64,000 nt of DNA from Effusibacillus pohliae DSM 22757 (GTDB taxonomy: Bacteria > Bacillota > Bacilli > Tumebacillales > Effusibacillaceae), in contig NZ_AQXL01000125.1 in NCBI RefSeq assembly GCF_000376225.1, positions 1 to 64,000 on the forward strand. Direction: 5' to 3'. Below, one piece after another: positions 2,996 to 36,987 of the stretch. The position numbers and the translations under genes are program-made. Under the pieces are notes generated by a model. It had not been told where the DNA came from. It saw only the letters and a program-made list of their open reading frames with translations, and made no database searches. How positions within the stretch are numbered: the first letter of the stretch is position 1; every line of letters begins with the position of its first letter.

Positions 2996-3123
2996 ACACT
3001 GCGATGGTTGCAACGGACCGGGGCGGGCCCCTGACGAAACGGCAACGCTATCAGGCGGTCCGCATAGCCCCACCCGGTACAAACGCAGGCTGCCGGCGAG
3101 ACGGGTGAGTTGAATCGGGACGT
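2996..3123 (+). other. Intergenic spacer cbiZ-cobU
   Basis: 128 bp without an obvious gene. I looked for the conserved cobalamin riboswitch elements and did not find them. Two GACGGGTGA-like repeats (about 3099-3107 and 3132-3140) lie before cobU. Confidence 0.4.
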
Positions 3124-3798
3124 TTGAGAGAGACGGGTGATCGTGTGGGCAAAAGTGCAAAGTTGGTGCTGGTAATCGGCGGTTCTCGCAGCGGGAAAAG
3201 CCGGTTTGCGGAAGCGTATTGTGCGAACTTGCAAAAACAGGCGGGCCTGCCTGTCACCTATATTGCCACCTGCCCGCGGATCGACGCGGAACTGGAAGCG
3301 AGGATCGCCGCGCATGTCGCCCGGCGGCCTGCTGAGTGGGGCTGTATTGAGGAGGCGACCCGCGTCGCCCAGCGGATACGGGAATTGGACGGTTCCGCAG
3401 GAATCCTCCTGCTCGATTGCCTGTCACTGCTCCTGAACAACTGGCGCTGGGAGGCGGAACAGCGAGGCAAAGCAGGCGGGTGTTTGGGTGAAGCGGTACA
3501 GCGATCGGCAGACGGTGAAACAGATAGACCGGGCGATGGAGAAGCAGTCTGTTTATCCGACGAACAAGTGGCCGAACTGACGGAAGAGCTGCTGCAGGCG
3601 TGCAAACAGTATCCGCACCCGGTGGTGATCGTGACGAGCGAGGTCGGAGCGGGTATCGTGCCGGAATCCAAATCGCTGCGGGCCTATCGCGATCAACTCG
3701 GCTTGATGAACCAGTTGGCCGCCCGCGAAGCGGATGCGGTCTACGCTGTAATGGCGGGGATCCCGGTGAATTTGAAGGAGCTGCAGGTGCGGTTATGA
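3124..3798 (+). CDS. cobU: Adenosylcobinamide kinase / cobinamide-phosphate guanylyltransferase
   Basis: 224 aa bifunctional CobU: phosphorylates adenosylcobinamide and then forms adenosylcobinamide-GDP. The P-loop GGSRSGKSRFAE is near the N-terminus, RIAAHVARRPAEW follows, LLLDCLSLLLNNW is the usual Walker-B-like region, and VVIVTSEVGAGIVPE is diagnostic. At about residues 112-142 there is an insertion rich in G, E, D and R that most family members (about 180-190 aa) lack. The start is uncertain: TTG 3124 or GTG 3145. It overlaps cbiB by four bases (ATGA). Confidence 0.92.
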   Translation: MRETGDRVGKSAKLVLVIGGSRSGKSRFAEAYCANLQKQAGLPVTYIATCPRIDAELEARIAAHVARRPAEWGCIEEATRVAQRIRELDGSAGILLLDCLSLLLNNWRWEAEQRGKAGGCLGEAVQRSADGETDRPGDGEAVCLSDEQVAELTEELLQACKQYPHPVVIVTSEVGAGIVPESKSLRAYRDQLGLMNQLAAREADAVYAVMAGIPVNLKELQVRL

Positions 3799-27515: not shown

Positions 27516-27771
27516 GTTACGCCCAGCATGGGCGTCATCTCTAAGGTGAGAGTCCCGAACGGGGGCTGGCGAGCGCCTACCGTAGCCAGGGGCAAGGGTG
27601 TCCGCCGTGAGGCGGAATCGGAAGGAAGCCAGACTTGGGCAAGCGCGGGCGGAAAGATGACGCTCTTATCTGGGGAGGACTGCGGACCGCGTCAGCCTTT
27701 TGGAACCGCCTAGTGCGGACCCGCATGCTAGGTGGTGAGGGGACAAGGTTAGCCGCCCCCTCCTACTCGAT
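27516..27771 (+). mobile_element. Deleted group IIC intron remnant
   Basis: 256 bp with intron 5' features (GTTACGCCCAGCATGGGCG, GGTGAGAGTCCCGAAC, CAAGGGTGTCCG...GGCGGAATCGGAAGGAAGCC) joined to the same 3' end as at 205-271. The maturase gene and much of domains I-III are missing. It sits just after a terminator hairpin, the favoured target of class C introns. The terminal bases CTACTCGAT supply the end of the convergent ABC gene. Confidence 0.85.
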
Positions 27772-29073
27772 TGCACCATTGCTGTCGGTCGTTTCTTTCT
27801 CCAAAAACAACATTTTCGCATGTTCGTCGTACGCGAACAATTCTGCTTGCCGGGCCCAACCGATACAAATATCGAGCTGTTTTTCCGCTTCCTCGTCGCC
27901 AAAATGCTTGCGGAAAATCTGGCTGAAAAAGTCCCGCGACATCCGGTTGTTGCGCTTCGACTGCAGGATCCAGATGATCCGTTCCATGATCGGGACGTTT
28001 TTCAAAACCTGGTGTTTCAAAATATCCTTACGTTCCACAACGGTCGCTTCTGCAAACGTTTTTCCCAGCGGGGTCAACTCAATATCCCCTTCGTGAACGC
28101 GGACAAATTCCAACAGGGATGCCGCTTCCACAATCGGCAGAAAATCTTCCAGGTTGAGGCCCAGTTGGTCGGCCAGTTTATACAGATCAGATTTTTCCTC
28201 CAGATCGTCGAGCAGTTCGATAAACCCTGTCATCGCCCCTGCCGGCACATCCGGCATCGGCTTGATTTTCCTGCTGGCCCCTCCCTGATCCACAATCGGT
28301 TTCGGGTCTTCTTTGTACCGGGTCATGAGCGAATACAGATCGTCTACCAACGATTCGAACAACGGGTCTTTCTTTTCCCGCCAATGGGGCAGCGGAATCG
28401 GCAGATCCGCGGTGATGCGGGCCGGGTCACGGGACAAGACGATCGCCCGATCCGCCATATACACCGCCTCTTCGATCCCGTGTGTCACCATGACAATCGA
28501 CTTCGTCGGGATCTTTTTTTCCAGCCACAGTTCCAGAATGTCGCGCCGCAAATTCTCGGCCGTCAGCACATCGAGCGCGGAAAATGGTTCATCCATCAAC
28601 AGCACATCCGGCTCCGACACAAGGGCTCTGCCAATTCCCACGCGCTGCCGCATGCCTCCCGACAGTTCTTTCGGATACGCACTTTCAAAGCCGTCCAATC
28701 CCAACATGTCGATCATTTGGATTGCTTTTTCCCGCTTTTCCTGATCGGACAATGAAGTTTTTTGCAACCCGAGTTCCACGTTTTCAAGCACCGTCAGCCA
28801 GGGAAACAAAGCGAACGATTGAAACACCATGCTGACACCGGGATTCACGCCATTGACACGGCTTCCCAAGTAAAACACTTGTCCTTCGGAAGGCGGTACC
28901 AATCCGGCCATAATCCGCAGAAGTGTCGATTTTCCGGAACCGGAAGGCCCCAGGATGGCGATAAACTCGCCTTCGTTAATCTGCAGATCGATGTGATCGA
29001 GCACGGTCACCACCGTTTCGCCGAAGTCGTATTTTTTCGTAATCCCCTTCAATTCCACAATTTTCCGTTGCAT
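27763..29073 (-). CDS. NitT/TauT-type ABC transporter ATP-binding protein with AAA-associated domain
   Basis: 436 aa. An ABC domain to about residue 250: Walker [48 protein letters not shown] and VTHGIEEAV. A C-terminal AAA-associated domain (PMPDVPAGAMTGFIELLDDL, then LLEFVRVHEGDIELTPLGK) is typical of this sub-family. The last residues come from the intron remnant (IE-stop). Substrate unknown; the two-domain permease and the M-box upstream hint at cations. Start ATG 29073 after AGGAGGG. Confidence 0.9.
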   Translation of the reverse strand: MQRKIVELKGITKKYDFGETVVTVLDHIDLQINEGEFIAILGPSGSGKSTLLRIMAGLVPPSEGQVFYLGSRVNGVNPGVSMVFQSFALFPWLTVLENVELGLQKTSLSDQEKREKAIQMIDMLGLDGFESAYPKELSGGMRQRVGIGRALVSEPDVLLMDEPFSALDVLTAENLRRDILELWLEKKIPTKSIVMVTHGIEEAVYMADRAIVLSRDPARITADLPIPLPHWREKKDPLFESLVDDLYSLMTRYKEDPKPIVDQGGASRKIKPMPDVPAGAMTGFIELLDDLEEKSDLYKLADQLGLNLEDFLPIVEAASLLEFVRVHEGDIELTPLGKTFAEATVVERKDILKHQVLKNVPIMERIIWILQSKRNNRMSRDFFSQIFRKHFGDEEAEKQLDICIGWARQAELFAYDEHAKMLFLEKETTDSNGAIE

Positions 29074-29084
29074 TCCGGTCCCTC

Positions 29085-30812
29085 CTACTCGATGTGATAC
29101 TTGGTTTCCGCCAGTTTATACAGCCTTCGCCACAATAACCGGTTGATCAGCACCACCAGCGACGACATGATAAAGATGCCCCAGATGATGGCCGGCCAGT
29201 TCCCCTCGTTGGTTGCCTGGGAAATATAGGCGCCGAGTCCGGTGGCTGTCAGCGTATCCTGTTTCCATGACACGATTTCGGAAACGATGCTTGCGTTCCA
29301 CGCTCCTCCCATGGCGGTCACTCCGCCGGTTACCAGATAGGGAAAAATGCCGGGCAGGATCAGTTTTTTCCATTTTTTCCAGGCGGACAGTCCAAAAATA
29401 TCGCTCGCTTCCCGCAGATCAGACGGAATCGCCATCGCGCCGGCAATCACGTTAAACAGCAGGTACCACTGGGTACCGAGCATCATCAGCGGGATGGCTC
29501 CAACTTCAAAATTCACATGCAGCTTTAAATAAAGCAGAGTTACCAGCGGGAACAGCATGTTGGCAGGAAAAGAGGCCGCGATTTGCACCAAGGGCTGCGC
29601 GAGTTGCGCCAATCGCGGATTGAATCCGATCGCTACACCAAGCGGAATTGTCCACAATGCGCCGATGGCAATTGCGGCAAACACCCGCAGCATGGTCAGT
29701 GCTCCCAGTCCAACCACATGCAGCAGTTCCCCCGATCCCAGCTGTTTCACCTCGACCAATCCTTGATACGCATACCGGATCACAAACCAGACAATCACCG
29801 CCCACAGCACAAGCTGCAGGAAGAACGATGCGCCTCTGGCAGAGGGCGGACGCATTTTCCCGGCCGCTGCAAGCCGGCCAAGAAAACGATCGGCGCCCCG
29901 CCAGACAGGCAGCAAGGTATAACGGAACAACAGATCGATCACCGCCGACTGTTGCAAAATTTTCAACACGACAGATGACGGCCTCTGCTTGGCTTCCGTC
30001 AGTTCCATCTTAAACTTGTCCGCCCAAGCGACCAATGGACGCCAAAACAATTGATCAACCAAAATGATGGTGGTCACCATCGCAATGACCGCATAGATGA
30101 CGGCTTTCACGTTTCCTTCATCGACGGCTGCCGCCATATAAGAACCCAGGCCGGGGAGCCGTACATTGGTTCCAAGTACTGTGATCGCTTCGCTGGCTGA
30201 TAAGAAAAACCAGCCGCCGCCAAACGACATCATGGAGTTCCACACCAGGCCGATCATCGCAAACGGAACTTCCAGCTTTTTGAAACGATTCCATGCGTTT
30301 AAACGATAGATGTCGGATGCCTCCCGCAACTCGCGCGGAATCGTGGTTAAGGAATGATAAAAACTGAATGTCATGTTCCAGACTTGCCCGGTAAAGATGG
30401 CAAAAATGGAGGCGCATTCCACCCCCAGCAGACTGCCGGGAAACAGCGAAATAAAAAACGTGATGGTCGCGGACAGAAACCCTAACACCGGGACAGACTG
30501 TAAAATATCGATGATCGGGATCATGATTTTTTCCGCCAACTGGCTCGAAGCAGCAATTCGTCCATACACGAACGTAAACAGCAAAGCGGCGAAAAAAGCC
30601 ACAAACATGCGGAGCAAGGAACGGCCCGCATAATACGGCAGATAAGCAGGATTCAAATCGATATGCGGCTGGTTGGTCGGTGAAAACGGAACCCGCATAC
30701 CGGCTCCGACGTGCATGATTCCGTAAAGCAGCGCAAACAGGAACAGAACGACGAACAGGTCGATCCAGCCGAATTTTCTAGCTCTCAGGTACCCAAAGCG
30801 GTTCATGATCAT
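29085..30812 (-). CDS. ABC transporter permease with two fused permease domains
   Basis: 575 aa. Two BPD_transp_1 domains in one chain: the first with PRELREASDIYRLNAWNRFKKL as EAA loop, the second with SDLREASDIFGLSAWKKWKK. About twelve transmembrane helices. Fused permeases of this type work with the AAA-associated ATPase encoded next. Nitrate, sulfonate or bicarbonate are known substrates for related systems; the M-box suggests a magnesium link. Start ATG 30812 after AAGGGGAAG. Confidence 0.88.
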   Translation of the reverse strand: MIMNRFGYLRARKFGWIDLFVVLFLFALLYGIMHVGAGMRVPFSPTNQPHIDLNPAYLPYYAGRSLLRMFVAFFAALLFTFVYGRIAASSQLAEKIMIPIIDILQSVPVLGFLSATITFFISLFPGSLLGVECASIFAIFTGQVWNMTFSFYHSLTTIPRELREASDIYRLNAWNRFKKLEVPFAMIGLVWNSMMSFGGGWFFLSASEAITVLGTNVRLPGLGSYMAAAVDEGNVKAVIYAVIAMVTTIILVDQLFWRPLVAWADKFKMELTEAKQRPSSVVLKILQQSAVIDLLFRYTLLPVWRGADRFLGRLAAAGKMRPPSARGASFFLQLVLWAVIVWFVIRYAYQGLVEVKQLGSGELLHVVGLGALTMLRVFAAIAIGALWTIPLGVAIGFNPRLAQLAQPLVQIAASFPANMLFPLVTLLYLKLHVNFEVGAIPLMMLGTQWYLLFNVIAGAMAIPSDLREASDIFGLSAWKKWKKLILPGIFPYLVTGGVTAMGGAWNASIVSEIVSWKQDTLTATGLGAYISQATNEGNWPAIIWGIFIMSSLVVLINRLLWRRLYKLAETKYHIE

Positions 30813-30826
30813 TGCTATCTTCCCCT

Positions 30827-30916
30827 TTACTCCTGCTGAATTTTAGCTTGCACTTGATTCTTCGCCTTATCCACTCCGGCCCGCCAAACGCGTTGCTCAT
30901 CAGGACATTCCCCCCT
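30827..30916 (-). pseudogene. C-terminal remnant between M-box and permease
   Basis: 29 codons open to a TAA at 30827, without start codon, ending DEQRVWRAGVDKAKNQVQAK followed by IQQE. The helical, charged end is reminiscent of a substrate-binding protein tail. It suggests that a gene between the M-box and the permease was deleted. Confidence 0.35.
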
Positions 30917-30926
30917 TTATCCATGG

Positions 30927-31170
30927 CAAAATGAAACCCCCTGCACACAAACGCAGGGGGTATGATTCGCAATCCCGTCAGATCGCAAATGAGAACCAAT
31001 CCCCCTGGTTGAGCTTCAGCACTGTACAACGTAGAGATCGTGTCTCAGCCACATTAAGTAAAGCCTTAATCCGGCAGTACCTGTTCAACCCATTGGCGTC
31101 TCTCGACGTTTCCGGGCAGTGGCCTGTGTTTGCACAGTAGCCTCGCCTAACGAGGATTTTGCCTTGTTAG
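30927..31170 (-). promoter_or_regulatory. M-box (ykoK) magnesium riboswitch with terminator
   Basis: On the minus strand the conserved M-box elements appear in order: CGTTAGGCGAGGCTACTGT, GGCCACTGCCCGGAAA, GACGCCAATGGGT, GGCTGAG, and GCTGAAGCTCAACC. The expression platform ends in CCCCCTGC/GCAGGGGG (30937-30960) with TTTCATTTT. M-boxes bind Mg2+ and terminate transcription when it is plentiful. The first intact gene downstream is the two-domain ABC permease. Confidence 0.9.
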
Positions 31171-31193
31171 CTTGTATGATTCGTTTCATTCAT

Positions 31194-31222
31194 AATGTAT
31201 ATTGTTTCAATTCATCTGTAAA
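31194..31222 (-). promoter_or_regulatory. Promoter of the M-box transcript
   Basis: Minus strand TTTACA (31217-31222), 17-bp spacer and TACATT (31194-31199). Confidence 0.6.
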
Positions 31223-34633: not shown

Positions 34634-36538
34634 TCACCTTTGCAAATGGTATGGGACGGTTGTGATAATTACGTCTTTGTGTCTCAATAACCATGCCCGA
34701 AGCAGCAATGCGCTTTGGTTGTGCAATATAAAGTGCCACCATTTTCTCGGGATAAACTGCGGGATCAGGATATGAACATGATCCGGCCGTCCCTCATGTG
34801 TTTCTACACGTTGAATAAAGCGTGTGATTGGGTTCAGAAGTGACCGGTATTCACTTTTCAGCGTCACCAGGCGACATGGAGCTCCCCATTCCTCCCATTT
34901 TTTCTCCATTTTATCAATATCTTCATCGTTAAACCCCACATATAAGGCGATCACGTCTGTGTGTAAACTTTTGGCGAATGATATGGTGTTCAGCACGACT
35001 CGGTGGACGCCTGACACCAGCACGATCGTCACAACGTGGTGGGATCTCGGTTTCATCGTCTTATAATCGATTCTCAATTCATCGGCCACTTGCTCATAGT
35101 GCCGACGAATGGCGAGACATCCGAGAACGATCGCAGGCAGGACCACGATCACAATCCAGGCGCCATCCGTGAACTTTGTGGTAGCGACCACGATCGAAAC
35201 GAGTGCCGTGGTTACCGCGCCAACCGCATTTACCGACATTTTCAGCTTCCAATACGGCCCTTTGATTCTTAGCCAGCGGCGTACAAGTCCGATTTGGGCG
35301 ATCGTGAACGAAACGAATACGCCAATCGAATAAAGCGGAATCAGCAAGTTTGTTTCCGCTTGAAACGCCAATATCAAAAGAGAAGCCAGAGCCGCCAGAA
35401 TGATCATTCCGTTTGAGTAACCCAGGCGATCCCCACGGATCGTCAGCGATCTGGGCAAAAAACCGTCACTGGCAACAAGGGCTGCCAGTTGTGGAAATCC
35501 CGTAAATGTGGAGTTGGCTGCCAAAATCAAAACAATAAATGTCAACCAGATGATGATTTGATAGATGGGACCGTGGCCAAAATAAACGCCTGCCAATTGG
35601 GACAGCATCGTATTTTGAGGATCCACCGAAATTCCCTTGACATACAACTGGTAGGCAAATCCCAACAGAGTTCCGCCGGTAATGAGTCCCAGCGCCACGT
35701 AAGCTTTTACCGCATTTTTTGCCGCCGGTTCTCGAAAAACGGGAACCGAGTTGGAAATCGTCTCAATTCCTGTCAAGGACGAGCAGGCTGCGCTAAACGC
35801 TTTTAATAAAAGAAGTGTGGTGAGTCCTTTTGGTATAGTACCAACCGACGGCGTCGAGGGTTGCACAAATCCTTTCTGCAGCTGATCGGTGAATCCCGTC
35901 AGGATCAGGAAAACCATGCTGATCATAAACAATAGAGTGGGCCAGGCAAATATGCTGGCTGACTCTGAGACCCCGCGCAAATTCACCAAAAGAATGATCA
36001 GCACACAGATCACCGACAGGGTGGTGGCGTGGGGAGCAACCACCGGATAAGCGGACGCAATGGCCTGTACTCCGGCAGATACGGAAACCGCTACGGTCAG
36101 GATGTAATCGACTAGCAGTGAACCTGATGCAACCAAGGGAATCCAAGACGTTTTAAAGTTGTCTCTGGCGATCATATAGGCGCCGCCACCGTTTGGGTAC
36201 GCCAGGACACCCATAATGTAGGATACAATCAGTATGATCAGGAGTACCACGGTGGCGAAGGTGATAGGCAGAATCAGCCACTTGGCGGCGGGGCCTAACA
36301 TGGCCACTTCTGTCATTCCGGCTTCCGGCCCATATGCGACGGATGAATAGAGGTCGGCGGCCAGTACAAGCAAAGCCACAAACCAATACAGTTTGTTATG
36401 TTTGGCATGCAGTTCACTTGTGCGCATGGGCCGGCCGATGAAGATCCGTTTCAGGCTGTTGAAGTTGGCAAGCGCAAAAATGATGGCCAAAACAGCACTC
36501 AGGACAAGCAGGGGGTGAGTCCAATGAGGATTGAACAT
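34634..36538 (-). CDS. kimA: KimA-type potassium importer (APC superfamily)
   Basis: 634 aa. Twelve-helix APC transporter core (LYSSVAYGPEAGMTEVAMLG, YPNGGGAYMIARDNF, TGIETISNSVPVFREPAAKN) and a cytoplasmic C-terminal domain of about 150 residues as in Bacillus KimA (YdaO), a high-affinity K+/H+ symporter inhibited by c-di-AMP. The c-di-AMP riboswitch directly upstream supports the assignment strongly. ATG 36538 after AAAGGAGAAC. Confidence 0.88.
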   Translation of the reverse strand: MFNPHWTHPLLVLSAVLAIIFALANFNSLKRIFIGRPMRTSELHAKHNKLYWFVALLVLAADLYSSVAYGPEAGMTEVAMLGPAAKWLILPITFATVVLLIILIVSYIMGVLAYPNGGGAYMIARDNFKTSWIPLVASGSLLVDYILTVAVSVSAGVQAIASAYPVVAPHATTLSVICVLIILLVNLRGVSESASIFAWPTLLFMISMVFLILTGFTDQLQKGFVQPSTPSVGTIPKGLTTLLLLKAFSAACSSLTGIETISNSVPVFREPAAKNAVKAYVALGLITGGTLLGFAYQLYVKGISVDPQNTMLSQLAGVYFGHGPIYQIIIWLTFIVLILAANSTFTGFPQLAALVASDGFLPRSLTIRGDRLGYSNGMIILAALASLLILAFQAETNLLIPLYSIGVFVSFTIAQIGLVRRWLRIKGPYWKLKMSVNAVGAVTTALVSIVVATTKFTDGAWIVIVVLPAIVLGCLAIRRHYEQVADELRIDYKTMKPRSHHVVTIVLVSGVHRVVLNTISFAKSLHTDVIALYVGFNDEDIDKMEKKWEEWGAPCRLVTLKSEYRSLLNPITRFIQRVETHEGRPDHVHILIPQFIPRKWWHFILHNQSALLLRAWLLRHKDVIITTVPYHLQR

Positions 36539-36599: not shown

Positions 36600-36772
36600 A
36601 AATGCAACAAACGGCCGGAAAGGCCGTTGTAGCCTCCTCTGCTTTCGCCTACGGAGTTAGCTGACGGGTTCAGGTGGCAGAAGAGTTGTCACCTTACCAA
36701 TGATGATCATTGGATTCACCCCAAAAGAATTGGGTCCTCCGCTCTGTCGAAACAGATTCGGCATTATCCGGT
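36600..36772 (-). promoter_or_regulatory. c-di-AMP (ydaO/yuaA) riboswitch with terminator
   Basis: Minus strand: GCCGAATC, then GGGGTGAATCC, GGTAAGGTGACAA, GAACCCGTCAGCTAAC and GTAGGCG, all hallmarks of the class, followed by the terminator stem AACGGCC/GGCCGTT (36610-36628) and TGTTGCATTTT. It turns off kimA at high c-di-AMP. Upstream, TATAAT near 36786 is a likely -10. Confidence 0.93.
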
Positions 36773-36987
36773 TAATGAGCATTATTATAAAACAGTGTTA
36801 AAAATGCACAATGGCCGGTCGATGGGGGGAGCGGCATTTTTGGTTCGATTTGTTCCGAATCTAACGAAAAATAATGTGTTTTCGTTGCCAAGCATCCATT
36901 TTCTTTAGTTTCAAGTGCCGAGTCAGTGCGGAAAATGGGGAGAGAGTGGTATATTTAGAAATAGAATGGATGAATAGGAGGAACCGT

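Follow-up and report, generated by a model that had tools for sequence, protein, structure and literature searches.

What is a magnesium riboswitch doing in front of an ATP-binding cassette (ABC) transporter, and what might that transporter move? The question is raised by a stretch of 64,000 nucleotides (nt) from Effusibacillus pohliae DSM 22757 (contig NZ_AQXL01000125.1, herein referred to as the window), in which an M-box on the minus strand precedes a fused two-domain permease gene and an ATPase gene. According to PMC4072509, M-boxes lie almost always upstream of CorA, MgtA or MgtE, and the Nramp-related Mg2+ importer NrmT was found through its M-box and experimentally proven; the term "ABC transporter" is absent from the main text of that paper. 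The window offers a case reached by the same route, transporters without a recorded role in Mg2+ transport standing behind an M-box, with the difference that NrmT is an Nramp relative of experimentally shown function and the window system an ABC transporter of predicted function. Reasoning as in the NrmT case, we take Mg2+ import as the most likely function of the ABC pair, which would be produced when the cell is starved of Mg2+. We hypothesize, with a probability of about 0.68, that the two genes specify a primary-active importer of the ABC type for Mg2+ (and possibly for similar hydrated divalent cations) that would work without an operon-encoded binding protein and be induced by Mg2+ starvation. 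The leader and operon comprise the following features, in the order of the minus strand (aa, amino acids):

31194..31222, minus strand: sigma-70-like promoter candidate (TTTACA-17-TACATT) from a consensus scan, weak and notable for its position only
30995..31161, minus strand: M-box (Mg2+-I, ykoK) aptamer, Rfam RF00380, 161.4 bits
30991..31010, minus strand: 3' strand of aptamer helix P1, which is also the alternative antiterminator strand according to computed duplex energies
30936..30961, minus strand: intrinsic terminator of the expression platform, with an 11-pair stem, a 4-nt loop and a T-rich tail
29085..30812, minus strand: fused two-domain ABC permease, 575 aa, with two PF00528 (BPD_transp_1) stretches
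27763..29073, minus strand: ABC ATPase, 436 aa, with PF00005 (ABC_tran) at residues 25-164 and PF09821 (AAA_assoc_C) at residues 298-416

A sequence-only reading of this DNA had described a minus-strand M-box with a terminator, followed by a two-domain permease as first gene and an AAA-associated ATPase, and each of these elements is borne out. The RF00380 match spans the whole model (positions 1-169 of 169; gathering score 44, E 3.8e-37) and retains the conserved core, and a terminator and a competing antiterminator are predicted from the sequence. The leader therefore has the same full aptamer, core and terminator-based layout as the rest of the M-box family, from which it differs in preceding an ABC transporter and not CorA, MgtE, MgtA or NrmT. 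The 3' P1 strand can form a computed duplex of -18.5 kcal/mol with the 5' arm of the terminator (30949-30966) and one of -10.3 kcal/mol with the P1 5' strand, alternatives that give the leader the layout of a transcriptional OFF switch. Leader folding is 5.45 standard deviations better than that of shuffled sequences, and the promoter consensus scan gave one match where 1.1 are expected by chance. The gap of 181 nt between aptamer and permease is too short for a transporter gene to lie between them. A short ATG-started open reading frame (ORF; 40 codons plus stop, 30778-30900, minus strand) lies downstream of the terminator and runs, in another frame, into the start of the permease gene; it may encode a leader peptide or be a chance occurrence. 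The window genome (3.36 Mb in 135 contigs) contains one further M-box, upstream of a CorA gene.

The predicted regulatory link between M-box and ABC operon is well supported by sequence, and a response of the operon to Mg2+ is probable because the leader belongs to the M-box family. In the mechanism that we propose, sufficient cytoplasmic Mg2+ would compact the M-box and allow P1 and then the terminator to form, which ends transcription; at low Mg2+ the 3' strand of P1 would instead pair with the terminator 5' arm and polymerase would read through. Read-through would yield the fused permease and two ATPase copies (a presumed 1:2 subunit ratio), which would pump Mg2+ in. That the system imports is suggested by its OFF-switch logic together with its importer fold, and Mg2+ is its probable substrate.

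The sequence-only reading had allowed for a second possibility, namely that the M-box of a lost Mg2+ transporter was left by a deletion in front of an unrelated gene that it now drives by accident, and had proposed a search of relatives for the pairing. We searched 299 genomes of one class, called Bacilli because Kyrpidia belongs to it (four candidate permeases scored per genome), 250 genomes of the class of Propionispira, 298 genomes of the class of the Chloroflexota locus L105, and the 80 named relatives that ranked highest among 579 from a scan of a species-genome collection, to which a covariance model from 22 M-boxes was applied. The pairing recurs in Bacilli, Negativicutes and Chloroflexota. 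The permease is found in 11 of the 299 Bacilli genomes, window genome counted, and at seven of the ten other loci the permease is immediately preceded by an M-box of the same orientation (L004, L005, L006, L008, L010, L011 and L013); the permeases of L007, L009 and L012, all from one family (f11), lack an upstream M-box. Among the named relatives, 17 of 80 loci carry the M-box (nine of them from genomes already in the other sets), including Neobacillus, Gordonibacillus, Paenibacillus, Sporolactobacillus and others within Bacilli; Pelosinus, Lucifera, Propionispira, Pectinatus and others within what we take to be the class Negativicutes; and the Chloroflexota L093 and L105. The Propionispira class has the permease in 21 of 250 genomes, with an upstream M-box at 15 of the 21 loci. 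In the L105 class a permease match occurs in 83 of 298 genomes, and 11 of the best 30 loci, which were fetched, have an M-box (nine within the fetched locus, one of them weak at 51.2 bits, and two more, L330 and L328, after extension). All 11 fall among the 15 loci of at least 58% identity, and none among the 15 at 42-47% (for these distant loci the flanks covered did not exceed 1.5 kb).

Altogether, an M-box lies upstream at 42 of 133 permease loci, nine same-genome loci being left out. This count includes L275 (51.2 bits) and L328 (29.9 bits, at a contig end) and excludes L294 (10.1 bits, E 0.45); L058 and L323, whose permeases are identical, may be the same genome counted twice among the 133, and short stretches, such as L332 with about 500 nt of upstream DNA, may hide an M-box. 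A terminator-like hairpin stands between aptamer and permease in 34 of 40 M-box/permease leaders, where 1.3 are expected from dinucleotide-preserving shuffles (control stretches above 500 nt cut to the first 300). The aptamers themselves are intact: over the 66 columns with 95% conservation or more among 64 other M-boxes, 35 permease-linked M-boxes keep 96.2% of cells, and the seven of them that depart at more than four conserved columns do not include that of the window (L001). A variant aptamer of changed specificity was also considered and set aside, the conserved columns being kept. The aptamer pairing is backed by covariation over 99 sequences, in an alignment fitted to that structure, which favours such support. 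When the presence of an M-box (41 rows) is mapped onto a tree of 132 permeases, 14 changes are required against 35.3 for shuffles, and well-supported branches force at least nine. The Chloroflexota permeases cluster with support among cyanobacterial and other rows and separately from those of Bacillota, so that several gains or losses of the M-box are needed.

In some Chloroflexota another gene stands between riboswitch and permease. M-box, mgtC and permease follow one another in three stretches (L093/L278, L336 and L328), mgtC being assigned by PF02308 in L093 and by similarity in L336 and L328; the M-box of L328 is truncated where the contig ends, about 800 nt upstream of mgtC. At L338 a mere piece of mgtC (3029-3229) remains between M-box and permease where relatives have the full gene, which indicates that internal loss does occur in Chloroflexota. 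The Chloroflexota stretch L330 (21-4301) holds in a row an M-box, a 514-aa Nramp relative (PF01566), a 128-aa ORF and the permease, and thus two candidate Mg2+ transporters behind one switch. By eye, this Nramp has the APW segment of M-box-linked Nramps and not the MPH of MntH types; the APW segment, given its M-box linkage, probably marks a Mg2+ transporter. The intervening genes and the loss at L338 speak for the relic reading. Direct adjacency nevertheless recurs across all three groups with intact aptamer cores and terminators far in excess of expectation, and the M-box label is far less scattered on the permease tree than in shuffles, so an origin of the pairing as a relic is contradicted by its recurrence at 42 of 133 loci; we rejected it as highly improbable.

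What else M-boxes control bears on the nature of the cargo. The Bacilli sample contains 116 M-boxes in 100 of its 299 genomes, in a scan with Infernal's stricter filters by which weak M-boxes may be lost, and 115 of them were examined, one of a tandem pair in G165 being used. The next gene encodes a P-type ATPase in 30 cases, MgtE in 29, CorA in 22, Nramp in 18 and the fused permease in eight; the rest are FtsW/RodA (two), DUF1003 (two), MgtC (one) and none (three, with no gene of at least 60 aa starting within 900 nt of the M-box). Known Mg2+ transporter families thus lie downstream of 99 of the 115 M-boxes; of the five recurrent targets, only the fused permease is an ABC transporter. A scan with Pfam and NCBIfam agrees (CorA 22, Nramp 18, BPD_transp_1 8, FtsW/RodA 2, DUF1003 2, MgtC 1). 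The transporter domain is evident in 26 of the 29 MgtE genes, the other three being recognised by similarity and by their CBS/MgtE_N parts (CBS occurs in 29 of 84 proteins scanned), and 28 of the 30 P-type genes match the magnesium ATPase models TIGR01524/NF011702; several genes downstream of M-boxes run past the end of the stretch retrieved, among them several P-type genes cut to about 400 aa. One genome (G051) has M-boxes upstream of MgtA, CorA and the fused permease alike.

The main rival to Mg2+ import accepts that the M-box regulates the operon by Mg2+ and holds that the cargo differs, being an anion (bicarbonate, phosphate), a Mg2+ chelate or another metal useful in Mg2+ starvation. The few M-boxes that precede FtsW/RodA, DUF1003 or MgtC genes, which are not known as Mg2+ importers, give it some precedent, as do the anion-transporting relatives and the CorA or MgtE genes of many carriers described below; the 99 of 115 M-boxes before known Mg2+ transporter families speak against it, as do two complete genomes in which none of four importer types was found, and a Mg2+ chelate as cargo would still make the operon a Mg2+ uptake system. 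We regard a different cargo as unlikely, if a serious competitor.

Several of these M-box arrangements in Bacilli are observations in their own right. FtsW/RodA genes (PF01098) follow an M-box in L124 and L144, both from one genus (G066, G160), where a cell-wall gene is possibly under Mg2+ control. A DUF1003 membrane protein follows one in L141 and L145/L271, two genomes of one family (in L145 the downstream gene was taken as the nearer 193-aa ORF with DUF1003, not the longest ORF), and in L271 it lies about 1.4 kb from the ABC operon and faces it; DUF1003 may be part of Mg2+ homeostasis. Second M-boxes without a close same-strand downstream gene occur in L158, L162 and L166 (G077, G102 and G113, one genus) and are possible antisense or orphan M-boxes. 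In L179 and L180 (G207 and G278, one genus) the P-type ATPase frames after the M-box are short (343 and 331 aa, N-terminal part), and the genes may be broken. The tandem M-boxes of G165 (L147) lie about 100 nt apart, upstream of MgtE.

In the permease and ATPase proteins PF00528, PF00005 and PF09821 are the only Pfam families above cut-off, and the Pfam scan gave no membership in the known Mg2+ importer families CorA, MgtE, MgtA or NrmT. The sequence-only reading had called the transporter NitT/TauT-type, a label that holds as a statement of nearest kin: a BPD_transp_1 permease and an ABC ATPase are both present, and the nearest solved kin of the permease second half and the ATPase core are found in NrtBCD and CmpBCD, NitT/TauT-type systems for nitrate and bicarbonate. 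It does not hold as a family assignment, since the permease stays far below every named-member NCBIfam cut-off (best TIGR01183, 75.9 bits against 209.05), as does the ATPase among its best 25 of 187 matches (best NF040729, 225.5 bits against 360), and no recurrent binding-protein gene accompanies the pair. The window system further differs from NrtBCD/CmpBCD in its fused permease domains and the AAA_assoc_C domain on its ATPase. No substrate-binding protein gene was found in the operon neighbourhood, to which this search was confined; the gene past the ATPase encodes a polysaccharide deacetylase on the opposite strand. Across the 80 named loci and four longer stretches, permease and ATPase are the sole genes shared by more than five loci, and a recurrent neighbour pointing to another substrate was sought among these 84 stretches and not found. 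A matching ATPase is present in the same stretch at 131 of 141 permease loci (duplicates included), mostly right behind the permease, and six of the ten stretches without one end less than 1 kb past the permease. We take COG4986 ("duplicated permease component") and COG4754 to be the orthologous groups of the pair, and know of no substrate assigned to either.

Structural models place the pair among importers. The AlphaFold model of the permease (predicted local distance difference test score, pLDDT, 89) has two similar halves, the second of which best matches CmpB, OpuA, MetI and NrtB (Z about 19-21, among the matches listed), and the chain aligns with the ferric importer protein FbpB over 421 residues (Z 19.7). 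Like the window permease, that of the FbpBC importer of Thermus thermophilus (PDB 9j4r) is a long chain, and FbpBC is a cation importer, but identity over the 421-residue alignment is only 9%. The ATPase (model pLDDT 92) most resembles, in its core, the corresponding chains of CmpBCD and NrtBCD, and its C-terminal part is predicted to consist of two helix-rich units with strand pairs, which we read as winged-helix-like; a regulatory role for AAA_assoc_C is a guess. In phmmer this C-terminal part also matched designed repeat proteins (best E 2.1e-9, over 23 residues), which we discounted as spurious matches. The extra domain, together with the absence of a recurrent binding-protein gene beside the pair, where an importer of this fold would usually have one, might suggest an exporter or a membrane sensor that is switched on at low Mg2+. 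We consider this improbable, given that the permease model best matches importers (CmpB, NrtB, FbpB, MetI and OpuA) and that CmpBCD and NrtBCD contain the nearest counterparts of the ATPase. Conserved intramembrane acidic residues of the permease (D102, E132, E208 and E512) were entertained as a Mg2+ site and rejected, E512 being present in NrtB and CmpB as well.

A further indication that Mg2+ itself is moved comes from genomes without the four importer types that we tested (CorA, MgtE, MgtA-type ATPase and NrmT-type Nramp). Neither MgtE nor CorA was matched in G021, G041, G057 or G072, while positive controls did match. The P-type ATPases found in them (five, four, three and four, respectively) are all of copper, zinc/cadmium, KdpB (K+) or Ca2+ type, and none reaches the MgtA cut-off, which the control genomes G066, G102 and G135, with an M-box before an MgtA-type gene, do. 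Each has one Nramp (in G057, two pieces of one region), which is MntH-like: DPGN is present in all four and MPH in all but the incomplete one of G057, and the Nramps of G021, G041 and G072 fall outside the group of M-box-linked ones, the G057 piece being placed uncertainly. The sole M-box of each of the four genomes adjoins the fused permease. G057 and G072 are 86% and 79% complete, so importer absence there is weak evidence; G021 (a single contig of 3,384,766 bases, by that length Kyrpidia tusciae; PMC3236038) and G041 (a single contig of 3,352,175 bases, by that length Kyrpidia sp. EA-1; PMC5773743) are complete, and with none of the four importer types found, something else must import Mg2+ there. 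A narrower search, for CorA, MgtE and MgtA, found no CorA and neither MgtE nor MgtA above cut-off in G311, G312 (Sporolactobacillus putidus) and G314, with subthreshold MgtE matches of 19.9 bits in G311 and 21.2 bits in G312 (cut-off 27.6). The first proposal of the sequence-only reading, a role of the ABC family in moving Mg2+ or some other cation, is thus supported by recurrence in three major groups, by the mgtC and Nramp operons and by the two importer-negative complete genomes; Mg2+ transport itself is predicted from genomic association.

Several observations weigh against Mg2+ import by this operon. The closest solved relatives, CmpB and NrtB, move bicarbonate and nitrate, and E512 aligns with a glutamate of both, so the acidic residues do not single out a cation path. 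No M-box accompanies 91 of the 133 permease loci, including every cyanobacterial one, and L046, L051 and L054 lack it though they are close relatives of M-box bearers; with filters off, eight M-box-less loci (these three, L007, L009, L012, L055 and L056) gave nothing above 11.8 bits. CorA is present in four of eight carriers in the Bacilli sample, window genome included, and in 13 of 17 named carriers, and MgtE above cut-off in two of these 17 and in five of six further Chloroflexota genomes; with CorA or MgtE in most tested carriers, the permease is seldom the sole importer. Kyrpidia could, moreover, take up Mg2+ via MntH or via metal-phosphate or metal-citrate carriers. Six relatives from the window's genus and order that lack the permease all have CorA.

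Among the open-access titles and abstract openings listed in our searches we found no M-box tied to an ABC transporter and no Mg2+ ABC importer, a coverage outside which subscription papers fall, so that an earlier mention may exist. In PMC9111926, which mentions the M-box riboswitch, "ABC transporter" occurs in the reference list only, and the main text of PMC3766115 names no mgtE, corA or mgtA.

Other riboswitches at these loci are ordinary. A cyclic di-AMP riboswitch (window 36632-36773, minus strand, 92.5 bits) lies upstream of a 634-aa APC-type permease (34634-36538) that is probably KimA-like. An S-adenosylmethionine (SAM) riboswitch lies on the opposite strand upstream of the M-box-less permeases in L007 and L012, and in L271 a SAM riboswitch faces genes resembling methionine biosynthesis.

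Beyond the window, the whole family of fused permeases with an AAA_assoc_C ATPase and no binding protein in the operon (in Bacillota, Chloroflexota, Cyanobacteria and further phyla) may form a class of primary-active Mg2+ importers that has gone unrecognised, and Kyrpidia may have in it the chief or sole route dedicated to Mg2+ uptake, an extension for which we put the odds at even. If this is true, it would add a new class of bacterial Mg2+ transporter for the most abundant divalent cation of the cell, give a widespread ABC family its substrate and account for the Mg2+ supply of Kyrpidia; one would then have to ask how this fold deals with a hydrated divalent cation when the operon supplies no binding protein.

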